The position numbers and the translations under genes were made by a program. A stretch of 7,319 bases of DNA from Acidobacteriota bacterium (lineage in GTDB: Bacteria; Acidobacteriota; Terriglobia; UBA7540). Under the pieces are notes generated by a model. That model saw only the letters and a program-made list of their open reading frames with translations, was not told the DNA's origin and made no database searches. The DNA lies in assembly GCA_021827245.1 (NCBI GenBank), contig JAKAWN010000346.1, forward strand, positions 1 through 7,319. The letters are read 5' to 3'. Numbering within the stretch: position 1 is the stretch's first letter; each line of letters begins with the position of its first letter. This document shows positions 1,879 through 7,018 of this stretch, one piece after another.

Positions 1879-2769
1879 TCACCTCATTTCCAAATTCGGG
1901 CTCAGCCCCAACTCATCTAGGGCGGCCTTCGTCTCTTCGATTTTCTGTGCTGAAATCCCACTTTCAGGCGCCGCCTCAAAAGTCAGCGTAAGCTTGAGTC
2001 CCTTCCCGCCGGCAAATTTGGAAAGCACCTTCGTGTAGAAGTTCATCCATTTCTGTGGCGGTACCTCGCCGCTCCACCTCAACACGCCCGGAGGAGGGGG
2101 TGGAAGGGGAGGCGTAATAATGCGGCCAGGCTTCGCAATCGTCAGTGTCGCGGAACCTTTCACGGTATCCTCGGTCACGGTCACGACAAAATTGCCCTCG
2201 TCATTGCCAGCTGTAAACACTCCCTCATTGTCAATTATTCCGCCTGTTGATTTCCACTCAAGTGGCCCTATGGCGATCTCGCCGCCGTACTGGTTGGCCC
2301 CCTTTGCCACAAACGATTGTTTCATCCCTGGTTGCAATTGGACATCTGCGGGCGATATGACAATCGACGTAAGAACTGGTGGTTTCTCCTTTTGCTTCTT
2401 ATAGACCTCCGCTGTCTCTCGAGTGATGATGTACATGTCATTGGAAATTTCAACTTCCGGCGCAGCGAGGCTGCGTTCGTAGTTAAAAGGTTGGTAGTCC
2501 CCTTGCGCTGACTTACCCACGTAACCTAAAAGGCCGCCAGACACGCCCCGTGCGATCGTGTCCCGGACAGCCTCGGGATCAAGAAGGCGAGGAAACAACG
2601 GTGACGCAAAGAAAGCATCTCTTACCGCCTTGGTGCTCCACTCTTTGAATGCGGGGTTCCAGTTACGGATCAGAAGATTCGGGCTAATGTCTTTCTCAAT
2701 CTCGCCATCTTTACGCAGCCGCTCGATGATGTACGTGACCATTGTGTCGGACGCGCTTGAATGAACCAA
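1879..2769 (-). pseudogene. C-terminal fragment of a DUF499-family (defence-associated ATPase) protein with inserted Ig-like domain
   Basis: A 296-codon open frame whose C-terminus (about 229-296, with VLRWSGEVPPQKW, FYTKVLSKF, GLKLTLTFE and GISAQKIEETKAAL) matches my memory of the tail of DUF499 proteins, large predicted P-loop ATPases of around 1000 aa found beside DUF1156 methyltransferases and helicases in restriction/defence islands. Residues 1-125 (RNWNPAFKEWSTKAVRDAFFASPLFPRLL split by helices, then VEISNDMYII) fit the family's preceding helical region. Between them residues 131-213 form a beta-rich segment opening LTSIVISPADVQLQPG, like bacterial Ig-like (Big_2) domains, followed by a proline run (217-228). 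No Walker A or B motif is present because roughly the first two thirds are missing. The only start is a TTG at 2769 with no ribosome binding site, directly at the join with the truncated radical SAM gene, whose frame overlaps by 100 bp. I therefore read it as a remnant. It could alternatively be expressed by read-through, but nothing suggests function. Confidence 0.7.
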
Positions 2770-3875
2770 CCCAAGGCTTTAGCTTGGGTGAAATGGGCCA
2801 CACCTTCAGCGTCTAGCCCGCCCACTTCGACCCCCTGCTTATCTTTGCCTGGACTGCATTTGTACAGCGTCCATTCTGGTCCGATCTGCAAGTTCCCCGA
2901 CTTGTCGGCTTGACAGAATGTCTTTCGACCCAAAGGGATTTGATTGTCATAGTAAAGGAAACCGCTCCTCAGCGCGCACCGGAGCACTAGGTTGATACGC
3001 CTATATAACTCCAGCGATGGGCTCCTGTCGCCAACAAGAATTGGAGTTATGTTGACTTGAATCCGATGACGATATGCGGGAGGTACGTCATCCAAGACTT
3101 GGTAGAAGGAGTCTACGCTCGAATCGTCGGCATTCATTCTCAGCGTGATGCGTGACTCTTCGATTTCCCGTAGAACATTGTTTAGATTTTCTTTGACTCT
3201 CTCGTACGTCGGCCGTCCGCTCGACAATGGCCGCCGCTGATCGTGGTAAACCGCCGGACCGTCGATAGTAAGGTGGAAAAAGCGGATGCCAGCCTTGAAA
3301 AGCTCTCGGACAGCTTCACGGCTTAGCAGATAGCCGTTCGTGCTAACCATGGAATACAGCTGTGTTTGATGTTCAGACGCTAATTCGGTCATCTTAGTAG
3401 ACACCCGCATCACTGTTTCCAGGCGGAGCAAAGGCTCGCCTCCAAACCAAGTAACATTGACTTGCCGATACTGTGGCAGTACGCGTTCGAAGTATTTTAC
3501 GATCCGCCTTTCCACTTCGCGCGACATCACACCTGTCTTGAAATTCACATAGCAATATTTGCATCGGAAATTACACTCATAGGTGGGAACCAGAAATAGC
3601 TCCAAAATTTCATGGGGCGCACATGCTGCTCTCGCCTGTTTCGTCAGGAGGTAAATCTCATCCACGTGCCCCGGTATTAGGAATCCCCCGTCAACGAGGG
3701 ACTGTTGCATCTCGCTCTCTGCTAGAAAGTCGCGTCCACCTGGCGCGCTGAGGATCTTCAGTACCGTGTCTTTTTCTTGAGAAGTGAGTTCGTAGAGTGC
3801 ACCCGAGATTCCATTAAAGAGAAGATGCTGATCCGGGTTGAAAGTCGCCCAAAAGTTGTATCGGGAGGGCTTCAT
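2670..3875 (-). CDS. Radical SAM peptide maturase B, truncated in the SPASM domain
   Basis: The 401-residue frame starts MKPSRYNFW, the same N-terminus as the upstream paralogue. The N-terminal 90 residues resemble the small recognition region found before the barrel in peptide-modifying radical SAM enzymes. The [4Fe-4S]-SAM motif is C101-x3-C105-x2-C108 (CNFRCKYC), followed by WFGGEP (143-148), STNGYLL (178-184) and LTIDGP (202-207). C321 and C340 begin the auxiliary-cluster region, but the following CxxCxxxPxCxGGC block seen in the paralogue is absent: homology stops near residue 370 and the last 30 or so codons run out of frame through DUF499-derived DNA. At least one auxiliary cluster is therefore lost and the enzyme is probably inactive or impaired. 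The ATG at 3875 is preferred over a GTG at 3995, which would overlap the precursor gene and precede a non-conserved 40-residue extension. The upstream signal (GGAAACGAACGG) is weak, and hairpins lie between it and the precursor, suggesting lower expression than the precursor. Substrate: presumably the adjacent Cys-rich peptide. Confidence 0.75.
   Translation of the reverse strand: MKPSRYNFWATFNPDQHLLFNGISGALYELTSQEKDTVLKILSAPGGRDFLAESEMQQSLVDGGFLIPGHVDEIYLLTKQARAACAPHEILELFLVPTYECNFRCKYCYVNFKTGVMSREVERRIVKYFERVLPQYRQVNVTWFGGEPLLRLETVMRVSTKMTELASEHQTQLYSMVSTNGYLLSREAVRELFKAGIRFFHLTIDGPAVYHDQRRPLSSGRPTYERVKENLNNVLREIEESRITLRMNADDSSVDSFYQVLDDVPPAYRHRIQVNITPILVGDRSPSLELYRRINLVLRCALRSGFLYYDNQIPLGRKTFCQADKSGNLQIGPEWTLYKCSPGKDKQGVEVGGLDAEGVAHFTQAKALGWFIQARPTQWSRTSSSGCVKMARLRKTLARIF
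2769..2789. repeat. Hairpin at the gene-fusion junction, IS200/IS605-end-like
   Basis: Perfect 7-bp arms ACCCAAG (2769-2775) and CTTGGGT (2783-2789) enclose GCTTTAG. Stem-GCTTTAG-stem hairpins resemble those at ends of IS200/IS605-type elements (from memory). It lies where radical SAM homology ends and DUF499 homology begins. No tnpA or tnpB is present, and the sequence also reads plausibly as radical SAM codons (FTQAKALGW), so coincidence remains possible. Confidence 0.4.
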
Positions 3876-3908
3876 CCGTTCGTTTCCGATTGCAATAAAA
3901 TGAATAGA

Positions 3909-3947
3909 GGGGAACGGTGCGGCACGTTCCCCTGATATGAGGGAACG
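3909..3947 (-). promoter_or_regulatory. Two mutually exclusive hairpins between precursor and maturase B (attenuator-like)
   Basis: Read on the minus strand there are three arms: CGTTCCC (3947-3941), GGGGAACG (3932-3925) and CGTTCCCC (3916-3909). Arms 2 and 3 form a perfect 8-bp stem with an 8-nt loop. Arm 1 can instead pair with arm 2 (7 bp, 9-nt loop). Only one stem can form at a time. The block starts 5 nt after the precursor stop codon and ends 33 nt before the maturase start. The sequence after arm 3 is T-rich (TCTATTCATTTTATT) but is not a clean U-tract, so partial termination, RNA end protection or ribosome-coupled switching are all possible. Hairpins after RiPP precursor genes commonly set a high precursor-to-enzyme ratio; applying this here is inference. 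Confidence 0.6.
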
Positions 3948-3952
3948 CTCGG

Positions 3953-4099
3953 CTAGCAGCCGCGAGAGCAACCGCACAAGTGATCCACACAACACTCCGC
4001 CTTCGCCACTATGCTATTGAAGATTTCCTTTGCATCGGCCTCCTTCGTTGTGGATGCCAGGATCTCTTCCTCCTGCCTAGGCTTGGCGATTACTTTCAT
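3953..4099 (-). CDS. Cys-rich RiPP precursor peptide (48 aa)
   Basis: The frame begins MKVIAKPRQEEEILAS, continues with a charged, helix-prone leader (to about residue 35), and ends ECCVDHLCGCSRGC followed by TAG. All five cysteines (36, 37, 42, 44, 48) are in the last 13 residues, the division expected of a leader plus modified core. The start is well supported: GGAGG lies 8 nt before the ATG and is the best ribosome binding site in the locus. It lies between two radical SAM/SPASM maturase genes, 64 bp after the first and 77 bp before the second, all co-directional. By analogy with sactipeptides and ranthipeptides the enzymes may form thioether bonds from core cysteines, but other radical chemistry on Cys-rich peptides is possible. 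No GG protease site, transporter or peptidase gene is visible. I do not recognise a named precursor family. Role (antimicrobial, metal-binding, signal) is unknown. Confidence 0.8.
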   Translation of the reverse strand: MKVIAKPRQEEEILASTTKEADAKEIFNSIVAKAECCVDHLCGCSRGC

Positions 4100-4107
4100 T
4101 TGCACCA

Positions 4108-4115
4108 CCTCCTCT
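4108..4115 (-). promoter_or_regulatory. Shine-Dalgarno site of the RiPP precursor
   Basis: Minus-strand AGAGGAGG lies 8 nt upstream of the ATG at 4099. It is much stronger than the sites before either maturase, consistent with the precursor being made in excess of its enzymes, and is the main evidence that this short frame is translated. Confidence 0.7.
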
Positions 4116-4120
4116 CTTCA

Positions 4121-4151
4121 GGAAATTTCCCGGCGTTGCCGCACGAACGCC
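4121..4151 (-). promoter_or_regulatory. Palindrome and hairpin in the precursor leader region
   Basis: GGAAATTTCC at 4121-4130 is a perfect 10-bp palindrome. Beside it GGCGTT (4132-4137) and AACGCC (4146-4151) form a 6-bp stem with an 8-nt loop. Both lie in the 64-bp gap between maturase A and the precursor. They could be a processing site, a weak attenuator or an operator; no T-run makes this a classical terminator. Confidence 0.35.
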
Positions 4152-4163
4152 TTGCCTTCAGAC

Positions 4164-5498
4164 CTATTTACTCGCTTCCTGTTGAAGGACGGTACCAAGA
4201 CTGCCCAAAGCCACTTGCTTCAAAATGTATGAGGCGTTTGTTGGTACCAAAGAGCAATAGCTACCTGTCCCTTTGTGGGACAAACGCATCCTTCGGCAGC
4301 CACCCATACACAACGGAAGGAACGCACAGGAATAGCATTTCTCTTCAAACAGATCCCCGTTTATCCATGTGTCCCATTTTTCATGGTCCCTTGTGAACGA
4401 ACCATCAGGACTCATAAAACCGACTCTGTCATCTGGGCCGAACTCGCTGACGCTGCATTTAAAGACGCTACCGTCCGGTCCAAGGATTACCTGGTGTTCT
4501 CGTTCTGCGTAACAGTAAACAAGCTTCCCCGTCGGAACTCCAGTCCACCCCAGGATGACCTCGTACCCAAGCTGTTCTGCCATTTTATAATATTTGGCCA
4601 CCGCTTCAGAAATCTCCCCACTCGCCAGGTTGTCCGTCGCACTGAGGGAACAGTGACCAAAGATTGGTTCGTAGACAACCCGAAGATGTGGTCGAACATC
4701 TTGGGGAAACATTTCGAGTAATCGAGGGATGCTGTGGAGGTTGCTGTGATTGAAATTGACACGAAGTGAAACCTTCACGCGGTCATCCGCGCGAGCGAGA
4801 CTGCAGACATTGTCGAAAACTCTCTTGAAGGTTCCTTTGCCGTTTCTCAAGACTCGCATCTTATCGTGCGTCTCGGGCGGGCCATCGACCGTAATCTGGA
4901 AATCCAGGATACCCGCACGGACAAGCCCGTTGACCCGATCTGGATTCAGCAGATATCCGTTTGTGGTAATGTGGGCAATAATGGAGACCCCGGATTCCGA
5001 GGCGATCCTTGCGGCAGCCGCAGAAATGGATATGACTCGCTCGTAGCATATCAGGGGTTCGCCCCCGAACCAGAGCAGCATGACAACCTTGAATTTAGGA
5101 ATCTCGGCTGCCAACCACAAGCGGATGCCCTTCTCGGTTTCGTCCGTCATTACCGAAGGTCGCCGAACCTCATAGCAATACGTACACGCAAAGTTGCAAT
5201 CAAGAGTCGGCATAATGATGACGTCTAGACGATTGGCATCCTGTATCCCTGATCTTTTTCGCGCCTCGATGATCCTTAATTCGTCGGCAGAGTCCTCCAC
5301 CAGGTATTTTTGCTCGATAAGGACAGCTTTAGTTTCAGAATCGGTCTCCTGGCATCGATCAGGTTCCGTCAGAATCCGCCTCACAACGTCTGTTTCCTTT
5401 TGATCACAGGCTACGAGGCTGCCATAGAGCGAGTTATAAAGGAGAGTGCGGCCGCTCGTAGGGTCATCCACCCAAATGTTGTACCTAGAGGGTTTCAT
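4164..5498 (-). CDS. Radical SAM/SPASM peptide maturase A
   Basis: Complete 444-aa enzyme starting MKPSRYNIW. Its N-terminal 90 residues look like the substrate-recognition region typical of peptide-modifying radical SAM enzymes. The SAM-cluster motif is C101-x3-C105-x2-C108 (CNFACTYC); LWFGGEP (142-148), TTNGYLL (178-184) and ITVDGP (202-207) are the expected conserved barrel motifs. The C-terminal SPASM domain is intact: C329, C348, then C388-x2-C391-x5-C397-x3-C401 (CYSCAFLPLCMGGC) and C415, enough ligands for two auxiliary [4Fe-4S] clusters. Length fits the family. The likely reaction is radical modification (for example Cys thioether crosslinking) of the Cys-rich precursor encoded 64 bp downstream; the substrate is inferred from position. 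The frame stays open to a TTG at 5618, but that extension is not shared with the paralogue and MKPSRYN is conserved in both, so the ATG at 5498 is preferred although its ribosome binding site is weak (GACGAGCGAAC). It is soluble, with no signal peptide. Exact subfamily is not recognised. Confidence 0.88.
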   Translation of the reverse strand: MKPSRYNIWVDDPTSGRTLLYNSLYGSLVACDQKETDVVRRILTEPDRCQETDSETKAVLIEQKYLVEDSADELRIIEARKRSGIQDANRLDVIIMPTLDCNFACTYCYEVRRPSVMTDETEKGIRLWLAAEIPKFKVVMLLWFGGEPLICYERVISISAAAARIASESGVSIIAHITTNGYLLNPDRVNGLVRAGILDFQITVDGPPETHDKMRVLRNGKGTFKRVFDNVCSLARADDRVKVSLRVNFNHSNLHSIPRLLEMFPQDVRPHLRVVYEPIFGHCSLSATDNLASGEISEAVAKYYKMAEQLGYEVILGWTGVPTGKLVYCYAEREHQVILGPDGSVFKCSVSEFGPDDRVGFMSPDGSFTRDHEKWDTWINGDLFEEKCYSCAFLPLCMGGCRRMRLSHKGTGSYCSLVPTNASYILKQVALGSLGTVLQQEASK

Positions 5499-6000
5499 GA
5501 GATGTGTTCGCTCGTCGCTTCTGTGCTGCCCATTCAAAGAAGTGCCGCAACTGAATCGGACGACGCCAGACTTGCACGCCGAACCATGCCGACTGCTTTC
5601 GACGAATATTCGCACCAACCGCGCGATGGCAGTAAGTACCTCAACACAACAAGATGGGATAACATATATGTTCTAGGTTTGCAATGGGCAGGCCCATACA
5701 CGATGATCCCAGACAGAAGCCAACAGCGAGTGACTCCAGAGAGTAAAGGAACCCGGGTGAGCCAATAAGATTGCGTTAGGTCGCCCAACCAAGAAATAGG
5801 GTCTCACGGTAAGCAACTCCTCGTTATGACTTGGATGGTCCAAAATAGTGACTGACCGCGCACCCCGCCGCCCATTAAGGCTAATCATAGCAAAATATTA
5901 TGGCCGAGTGTGCCGTGTTTGCTGCCGATCCGGCGGGGGCTCCACCGCGACAGTCGAGCGAATGTCCACCCTGTAACAGGACGTCTGGCACAGTACACAG
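5499..6000. other. About 500 bp with no convincing gene; probable promoter region of the RiPP locus
   Basis: Minus-strand frames here lack ribosome binding sites or protein-like composition, and none ends in a Cys-rich core like the precursor. The stretch should hold the promoter for maturase A and the precursor. TTGCAA (minus strand, about 5682-5677) lies just upstream of the AT-rich palindrome at 5661-5672, but no good -10 follows at standard spacing, so I do not call a promoter. Degraded sequence is another possibility. Confidence 0.4.
5661..5672. promoter_or_regulatory. Perfect 12-bp palindrome AACATATATGTT, possible operator
   Basis: AACATATATGTT equals its own reverse complement. It lies 163 bp upstream of the maturase A start, in an intergenic region otherwise richer in GC, where a dimeric regulator could bind. 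Only the symmetry is seen; the regulator and function are unknown and a chance AT-rich palindrome is possible. Confidence 0.3.
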
Positions 6001-6315
6001 TCAGAGGAGGGACACCTGCCTCCCATTTACACGGGTGAACTTACCGTCAATCTCGACACTGCCAATTACAACCAGGTCGAATGCCTGTCCTTCGACGGGA
6101 ATGATTGAGAGAAGATCTGGGCGTTCCGCTTCGGGCACCTGGCCGAGGTATTCGACGAACTCGGCGAACGTCATCTTGAGGCGGATGCATGCTGCCGGAA
6201 TGCCTTTCCCAATAAAAAGTTCTCCGCGCTCGGTCGCGAACGCCGGCGGCCTCTCTGTACAGGCTGCCAAGTCTCGCAAGACATTCTTACTAATCTTTAC
6301 GGGGCACGGTGCCAC
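6001..6315 (-). CDS. Hypothetical protein (104 aa)
   Basis: Starts at GTG (6315) with GGAG 6 nt upstream (ACGGAGAATCAAGTG). The product has a mixed alpha/beta character: a helical N-terminus (MAPCPVKISKNVLRDLAAC), a central TFAEFVEYLGQVPEAER helix, then a beta-like C-terminal half (FDLVVIGSVEIDGKFTRVNGRQVSLL). It looks like a soluble, folded protein with good codon texture, but I recognise no family or catalytic motif. It is the last of three small co-oriented genes, 126 bp after the zinc-finger-like one, and may share their transcript. No link to the RiPP genes 500 bp downstream is evident. Confidence 0.6.
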   Translation of the reverse strand: MAPCPVKISKNVLRDLAACTERPPAFATERGELFIGKGIPAACIRLKMTFAEFVEYLGQVPEAERPDLLSIIPVEGQAFDLVVIGSVEIDGKFTRVNGRQVSLL

Positions 6316-6441
6316 TTGATTCTCCGTATCTGCCTACCGATCCAATTGCAGTCTTCTAAGCTCTATCATCCGGGAAAGCAATACCATGACCTTGTGAGCA
6401 ATGGCGGGTGCAACTAGCGTCCCCGCCCCTCGCCTTGTCCT

Positions 6442-6708
6442 TCATTGTTTGGTACTAATGGCCCTGACGATGACACGTGCCATGGTCCTGAGTCGCATTC
6501 TCTTTTTTTCGGGCAACGACTCTACATAGCGGTCAATCGTTTCCTGGTACTTATGCGCGCACAGGTCGCACTTTTTGATGTGTGCCCTCACCTCGTCGCC
6601 ATGATCGGCAATAAACTGCATCGCCTTCTCAGCAGGCGTTCGAACGAATTCCGCGTGGATTTCTCGTGCTGAGGCCAAATTGTCGGATGCGGAGCTTCCG
6701 CAATTCAT
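6442..6708 (-). CDS. Small protein with HxxxCxxC zinc-finger-like motif (zf-HC2/anti-sigma-like)
   Basis: An 88-aa frame from ATG 6708, with AGGGGA about 8 nt upstream as ribosome binding site. Residues H43-x3-C47-x2-C50 (HIKKCDLC) match the core of the zf-HC2/ZAS zinc-binding motif of anti-sigma factors, in which one more ligand comes from further upstream (H36 could serve). The motif is followed by a long basic helix ending in SLPEKKRMRLRTMARVIVRA. There is no transmembrane segment, unlike many anti-sigma factors, so it would be a soluble zinc-binding regulator if real. No sigma-factor gene is visible in the window; the small 77-aa gene upstream does not contain recognisable sigma regions. 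The motif is seen directly; the regulatory role is inference. Confidence 0.6.
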   Translation of the reverse strand: MNCGSSASDNLASAREIHAEFVRTPAEKAMQFIADHGDEVRAHIKKCDLCAHKYQETIDRYVESLPEKKRMRLRTMARVIVRAISTKQ

Positions 6709-6784
6709 GTTCTACATCCCCTGGGAGGAAAGGCGAAATGTTAATTTGGGAACAGAGCCTTCGAAACACATCACAAGCTGCGTA

Positions 6785-7018
6785 TTAATTCGGGCCGAAC
6801 CGGGTTGAGTATATCTCTTCGAGGGCATCTTCTATTCTCGCGCGATCCACAATCGCCTCGTATTCCCTCCTTTCGTCGGGGGTCAACCTATCCCAAAGTG
6901 ATTCAAAGAGACGCTCGGCAGCATCGCAAATGTTTAATGTTCCATTGCCTTTCGCCCGTTCCATAATGCACCGGGCCAGGAGCGCATCATGAACGATGGC
7001 GCTTATTCTCCGTTTCAC
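6785..7018 (-). CDS. Hypothetical small helical protein (77 aa)
   Basis: Starts at GTG (7018) behind a moderate ribosome binding site (GGTGAG). The protein is predicted largely helical and acidic in its C-terminal half (LTPDERREYEAIVDRARIEDALEEIY), with a basic N-terminus (MKRRISAIVHDALLARC). It lies 76 bp upstream of the zinc-finger-like gene in the same direction, so the two may be co-transcribed. I do not recognise a family. The charged helical character would suit a small regulatory or partner protein, but that is speculation; the open frame could also be fortuitous. Confidence 0.5.
   Translation of the reverse strand: MKRRISAIVHDALLARCIMERAKGNGTLNICDAAERLFESLWDRLTPDERREYEAIVDRARIEDALEEIYSTRFGPN

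Follow-up and report, generated by a model that had tools for sequence, protein, structure and literature searches.

Contig JAKAWN010000346.1 of an Acidobacteriota bacterium, analysed here over 7,319 nucleotides (the window), carries on its minus strand a cysteine-rich reading frame of 48 residues next to genes of the radical S-adenosylmethionine (SAM) type. Does this frame encode the precursor of a ribosomally synthesised and post-translationally modified peptide (RiPP), and if so, which enzyme would modify it and how? An earlier note on this DNA had proposed an unannotated Cys-rich precursor beside a SPASM-type maturase, and this proposal is borne out. The 48-residue peptide and the upstream enzyme, rSAM1, form a well-supported precursor/maturase pair that recurs in two further loci, L001, from a metagenome-assembled genome of a Bryobacterales bacterium, and L002, an IMG/VR contig with phage tail genes. 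The features of the window are collected in Table 1.

Table 1 Features of the peptide locus and its surroundings in the window.
Feature	Position	Strand	Remarks
Radical SAM/SPASM maturase rSAM1, 444 aa, full length	4164..5498	minus	CX3CX2C, CX13GX4C, CX2CX5CX3C, last Cys
Shine-Dalgarno AGGAGG	4108..4113	minus	8 nt upstream of peptide ATG
Precursor peptide, 48 aa	3953..4099	minus	Leader ~1-32, core KAECCVDHLCGC, then tail SRGC
Terminator-like hairpin, 9-pair stem	3908..3933	minus	Between peptide and rSAM2 fragment; tail weakly T-rich
rSAM2, fragment of second, distantly related radical SAM gene	2670..3875	minus	Radical SAM Cys present, CX2CX5CX3C absent
C-terminal remnant of DUF499-type gene	1879..2769	minus	Overlaps rSAM2 end; outside peptide system

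The probable precursor gene

Read from 4099 to 3953 on the minus strand, the frame translates as MKVIAKPRQEEEILASTTKEADAKEIFNSIVAKAECCVDHLCGCSRGC. Its strong ribosome binding site and the confinement of all five cysteines to the last 13 residues are as the earlier note described them. Small open reading frames are common in the window (82 of at least 30 residues), which is what could be said for a chance frame; that explanation is already refuted, being contradicted by the conservation of the peptide, its linkage to the enzyme and the codon evidence. A first search with the 48 residues returned 10 relatives at 52–79% identity (E 4e-17 to 3e-6), and in the stretch from KA to CGC the DNA of the window, L001 and L002 differs pairwise at 7–9 of 12 codons, as against 0–1 amino acids. 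Because of these two results the frame is beyond chance: it is a real gene under selection at the amino-acid level, and the substitution pattern that the earlier note had asked about speaks for selection. The synonymous distances are saturated, so that a dN/dS ratio is not derivable for the peptide. Against solved structures the peptide had no match at E ≤ 1.

A profile search, with an alignment of 13 sequences including the L001 and L002 peptides (read from DNA) as the query, retrieved 231 proteins at E ≤ 1 out of 599 candidates; the family counts that follow rest on the best 120 of these 231 matches. Retrieval required exact 5-residue words in common with the query set, and part of the invariance of the core is owed to this; a leader word is common to 85 of the 109 new peptides, and 24 are without any. 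The motif C-x-x-H-L-C-x-C is present in all 120 listed matches, its last Cys lies within nine residues of the C-terminus in 118, and in 70 the peptide ends one residue after it. A CC pair precedes V or I in 99 of the 120; in 21 the first Cys of the pair is replaced by S, Y, N, T, F or L. Any Cys following CxC occurs in only 27. The spacing that the earlier note took as distinctive, Cys-Cys followed by CxC and a terminal Cys, consequently does not define the family: the invariant part is CxxHLCxC, and neither the first Cys of the pair nor the terminal Cys belongs to it.

Alignment A4 comprises 116 rows: the peptides of L001 and L002 and 114 of the 120 listed ones. The six excluded (P0137, P0158, P0190, P0206, P0233 and P0240) are longer or extended at the N-terminus. 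Residues E10, C37, H40, L41, C42 and C44 are invariant (116/116), position 38 is V in 114 rows and position 43 is G in 115, and D39 is replaced by N, V, Q or I in 20. Mean column identity is 0.52 for residues 1–32 versus 0.98 for residues 37–44, with a median pairwise identity of 51% over the whole peptide; the conserved leader positions are P7, E10 and [IV]13-L14. This is the variable leader and distinct C-terminal core expected of a RiPP precursor. The combination that gives the family its interest is an eight-residue core that stays nearly invariant as the leaders diverge, with one enzyme alongside.

Scans of the 116 peptides against NCBIfam and Pfam gave no fitting model, only scattered weak hits, and none of the 116 matched an NCBIfam RiPP precursor model. 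The strongest weak hit was to a conotoxin model (E 0.0032), which seven members match at E ≤ 10 and which is taken here as an effect of Cys composition. In open-access full text, within the terms searched, no paper on the core sequence, Clo7bot or geopeptide was found. The system is best filed as a new family, without a name so far, within an already known kind, the Cys-rich radical SAM RiPPs.

The probable maturase rSAM1

SPASM enzymes are characterised by CX3CX2C, CX9-15GX4C and CX2CX5CX3C motifs and a last Cys. This whole signature is present in rSAM1, at C102/106/109, C330-349, C389-402 and C416 (numbering of window:4164-5501), together with a match to Radical_SAM PF04055 (E 1.8e-14). The N-terminal 88 residues are predicted to adopt the fold of a leader-binding domain, the RiPP recognition element (RRE). 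Folded alone, the domain reached a pLDDT (predicted local distance difference test) of 93.4, with strands at residues 7-12, 17-22 and 27-31 and helices at 33-44, 51-62 and 73-85, that is, the three strands and three helices looked for in a fused RRE. The best structure scores were obtained with TigE (8.2), MccB (7.7), TbiB1 (6.7) and lasso B1 (6.2), followed by the PbtF RRE (5.2), PqqD (4.3) and CteB (4.2). Two results weigh against the assignment as an RRE: the best Foldseek E value of the domain was only 0.086, and rSAM1 gave no match to Pfam PqqD. As predicted, nevertheless, the domain appears to resemble the leader-binding domains of RiPP enzymes, and this resemblance strengthens the case for a precursor/maturase pair.

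PADLOC returned only viperin hits in the window, on both radical SAM proteins, and a defence system was rejected as a reading since nothing beyond these hits was obtained.

Linkage of peptide and enzyme

In the window, L001 and L002 alike, the peptide is immediately preceded by a co-oriented gene of the rSAM1 type, and the enzymes of the latter two loci are 48% and 51% identical to rSAM1. A small conserved open reading frame thus accompanies a peptide-modifying enzyme in several unrelated loci. Metagenome clusters were paired by identical length of their longest contig, over 120 × 120 peptide/enzyme pairs among the matches listed. Lengths agree to the base in 23 pairs, one being the window itself and 22 further; offset lengths gave a mean of 0.8 and a maximum of 4. 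Of the 53 peptides among the same matches whose contigs reach at least 3 kb, 21 have a same-length enzyme partner. For two of the pairs, P0149/P0108 and P0173/P0116, no common data source is listed. The earlier note had made its proposal depend on a conserved short Cys-rich frame near relatives of the maturase, and such a frame is found in L001, L002 and the 23 same-length pairs.

Peptide and enzyme distances are correlated, with r 0.70 over 22 pairs (P0196 dropped) and r 0.77 over 21 pairs (P0149 and P0173 dropped), the latter value being 0.77 also without the window; none of 20000 permutations reached these values. Peptides P0149 and P0196 share a longest contig of length 17,480 with the enzyme P0108 (Thermodesulfovibrionales), and from this double pairing some loci may hold two precursors.

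Comparison with known systems

The SCIFF system (CteA-CteB, ranthipeptides) is alike in having a peptide of ~45 residues with several Cys and one RRE-radical SAM-SPASM enzyme. It differs in the peptide, which there has six Cys in ~45 residues and here five, three of them invariant in the family (CxxHLCxC), and in the enzyme, as rSAM1 scores 69 with TIGR03974 against a cut-off of 425 and so falls outside SCIFF; none of the 116 peptides matches the NCBIfam SCIFF peptide model. The review PMC8326336 describes Cys-to-Thr thioether formation by CteB-type enzymes and binding of the leader by CteB as a β strand, and there the wide spread of SCIFF in Clostridia was argued to speak against an antimicrobial role.

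The four best NCBIfam models of rSAM1 are Clo7bot (TIGR04334), CefB (NF038107), TIGR04463 and geopeptide (TIGR04280), all radical SAM peptide maturases by model name. Of 10 relatives scanned, 9 have the same four as their best models, and most of the matches span nearly the full length; with P0070, three of these models passed E 1e-40. Membership does not follow, as rSAM1 reaches 207, 195, 192 and 173 bits against the respective cut-offs of 600, 600, 525 and 400. Since all 11 proteins (rSAM1 and the 10 relatives), at 145–210 bits, stay far below the cut-offs of 400–600, the rSAM1 type forms a separate branch.

TigE (8vpo), at 13–15% identity to rSAM1, has a substrate and product reportedly unlike the Cys-rich core. 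PapA-PapB (freyrasin) likewise combines a Cys-rich peptide with a radical SAM enzyme, but its repeated Cys-x3-Asp motif is missing here, where residue 39 is not always Asp, and rSAM1 scores 92 with the PapB model against a cut-off of 340. According to PMC9413430, PapB links Cys to Asp by a thioether. An acceptor restricted to Asp appears unlikely in the present family because D39 is not invariant.

Proposed modification of the core

We consider it probable that rSAM1 and the 48-residue peptide constitute a two-gene RiPP unit whose core is modified on a bound leader, most plausibly with thioether formation. The leader, in which P7, E10 and [IV]13-L14 are conserved, would dock onto the RRE-like domain at the N-terminus of rSAM1, by analogy to CteB probably as a β strand. 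Modification of the C-terminal core C-V-[D/N]-H-L-C-G-C would follow at the radical SAM centre and the SPASM clusters, most likely with at least one thioether cross-link from the invariant C37, C42 and C44 to a neighbouring residue. The thioether chemistry and the choice of donor Cys are drawn from analogy and should be taken as provisional. In ranthipeptides the Cys sulphur is bonded to a carbon other than Cα, and in sactipeptides to Cα itself.

The best match of rSAM1, by sequence and by Foldseek, is the structure 5wgg/5why, which we take to be the CteB entry (Grove et al. 2017, cited in PMC8326336). This match and the presence of three invariant Cys within eight residues both favour the thioether over a RiPP pair with another modification, such as a C-C or C-N cross-link, a cyclopropane-type change at His/Leu, epimerisation, or conversion of Cys to formylglycine or a related residue. 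Several observations nonetheless count against the thioether and for such chemistry: H40 and L41, invariant in all rows of A4, are not explained by thioether donors alone; anSME and ChlB score about equal to CteB in comparisons with the predicted fold of rSAM1; and TigE matches rSAM1 over its full length in addition to heading the comparison of the N-terminal domain. Other chemistry, or metal binding, would also be compatible with the invariant His and Leu and the likeness to TigE, and a non-thioether modification is accordingly viewed as a possibility, though an unlikely one.

The mature product may alternatively be a metal-binding peptide, in which CxxHxCxC gives four soft ligands (C37, H40, C42 and C44) and the enzyme only shapes or trims it. 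All four residues are fixed among the 116 sequences, in contrast to the variable D39 and extra Cys. The ligand reading rests on the pattern, however, and no gene for metal transport, sensing or storage was recognised among the scanned frames of the window or eight neighbouring frames of L001 and L002, which makes this explanation rather improbable. An exporter gene was likewise not recognised in the scanned frames of the window, L001 and L002.

Returning to the proposed leader-bound, thioether-modified unit, its almost fixed core suggests one defined product, such as a signal, a cofactor or a metal-binding peptide, and therefore a defined role rather than that of a diversifying antibiotic. The precursors of pyrroloquinoline quinone (PQQ) and mycofactocin similarly have a nearly invariant core that a radical SAM enzyme makes into one product; to our knowledge, neither has a Cys-rich core. 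A minimal pair of two genes is easily reconstituted, and one identified product would hold for the whole family.

The second radical SAM gene and the possible end of the unit

The earlier note placed the peptide between two co-oriented radical SAM genes and regarded both as maturases. The orientation stands, as both are on the minus strand and match PF04055 (rSAM2 with E 2.5e-20), and so does the upstream enzyme, which accompanies the peptide in L001 and L002 as well; the downstream frame is not intact. The likeness of rSAM2 to rSAM1 (112 of 368 alignment columns identical, 30%) stops near base 2800, leaving the last ~130 bases without likeness, and the CX2CX5CX3C required of a SPASM enzyme is absent from 2670-3875. 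The overlapping frame corresponds to the C-terminal part of a DUF499-type protein; over query residues 1-294 it is matched, at 47% identity, by a Planktothrix plasmid gene 2997 bases long. Because the likeness of rSAM2 ends where it does and frame 1879-2769 is such a C-terminal part, two broken genes meet at about 2740-2800. The junction, window 2670-2801, would be a natural breakpoint or an assembly chimera.

The notion of two maturases was dropped, rSAM2 being truncated and no gene of its type following the peptide in L001 or L002. A related explanation holds that both radical SAM genes act in sequence and that rSAM2 is what remains of a second maturase, lost through a recent breakpoint or a misassembly. 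In its favour, rSAM2 lies downstream of the peptide in the same orientation, with the stated likeness to rSAM1, and 1.5 kb beyond the peptide L001 has a further radical SAM gene, albeit of a different type. Against it, a terminator-like hairpin stands between peptide and rSAM2, and directly after the peptide L001 and L002 are without an rSAM2-type gene; a search of 396 genomes from the G001 phylum at E ≤ 1e-50 gave no rSAM2 either, although an empty result proves nothing there. On balance sequential action seems very doubtful.

The fold of 3885-3955, which holds the hairpin, has a z of -3.26; the terminator-like sites in 3700-5900 number two, no more than in shuffles (mean 2.2). The transcription unit of rSAM1 and the peptide may end at this hairpin. 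Scans of L001 and L002 found no terminator-like site 3′ of the peptide on its strand, and promoter scans of the window, L001 and L002 were empty. Rfam and tRNA searches of the window gave no match, and an RNA element or tRNA was rejected on this basis.

Neighbourhoods and distribution

In L002 (6698-8195) phage tail genes surround the radical SAM/peptide pair, which runs against the strand of its neighbours. A phage tail frame follows the peptide, and two long frames face the pair from the other strand. The first of these matches families of tail fibre proteins (phrog_5616, E 2.8e-8; central tail fibre J, E 2.6e-6); the second matches a Pfam tail sheath TIM-barrel model (E 5.3e-11) as well as a phage family without assigned function. 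Another frame close by has matches to tape measure and endolysin families (E about 1e-8), and a frame of 1066 residues had no PHROG match. This is how an accessory gene set on a phage or prophage is arranged. The peptide and enzyme of L002 are identical to P0139 and P0119, whose listed contig has 21,225 bases, and L002 may for this reason have been trimmed from a longer contig.

In L001 (5329-16727) the pair stands between a tubulin-like gene and a fatty-acid desaturase gene; the desaturase gene is followed by the further, B12-type-like radical SAM gene (11647-13608, PF04055 E 5.8e-21), and patatin-like and protein kinase genes lie beyond. The NCBIfam hits of this radical SAM gene are mostly to B12-binding types, all far below cut-off, and not to the rSAM2 type; it was not adopted as a member of the unit.

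Peptide records bear the names Bryobacterales, Thermodesulfovibrionales and Chitinophagaceae, among others. At E ≤ 1e-60, a survey of 396 genomes of the phylum with rSAM1 found two: the genome from which L001 itself comes, and G122, whose locus L006 has a 34% relative of rSAM1 with a different Cys-rich frame upstream. That frame (L006 1270-1446) has 58 residues with several Cys and ends in CAEWCETYCRSWQGCDVCYGWKSCAG; it is a candidate peptide with a different core. A survey of the order with peptide alignment A1 found 1 of 257, the genome of L001 itself. Scanning genome contigs for the peptide gave 403 stretches that fit the pattern, one of which was confirmed; in viral contigs 1 of 47 and 2 of 2 stretches were confirmed, the same single locus both times. 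There was no match to the peptide in 72,556 plasmid records. Among named phages, 13 records have a protein distantly like the L002 enzyme (23–30% identity in the best 10 of 13), and L003 is a 32% partial match on a viral contig. As these genome, order, phylum, plasmid and viral scans gave few or no loci, the system is sparse in sequenced species; most listed members are from metagenome sources. A bolder reading, to which we give little credence, is a mobile two-gene system that makes one fixed CxxHLCxC product (a cross-linked metal-binding or redox peptide, a cofactor or a signal) across distant bacteria and at least once within a phage tail cluster.

Elsewhere in the window, three small frames of 104, 88 and 77 residues stand in a row at 6001-7018 (minus strand), with no Pfam match at cut-off. 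At 66-1805, also on the minus strand, a 579-residue protein has squalene-cyclase-like toroid repeats (PF13243, E 1.7e-7).

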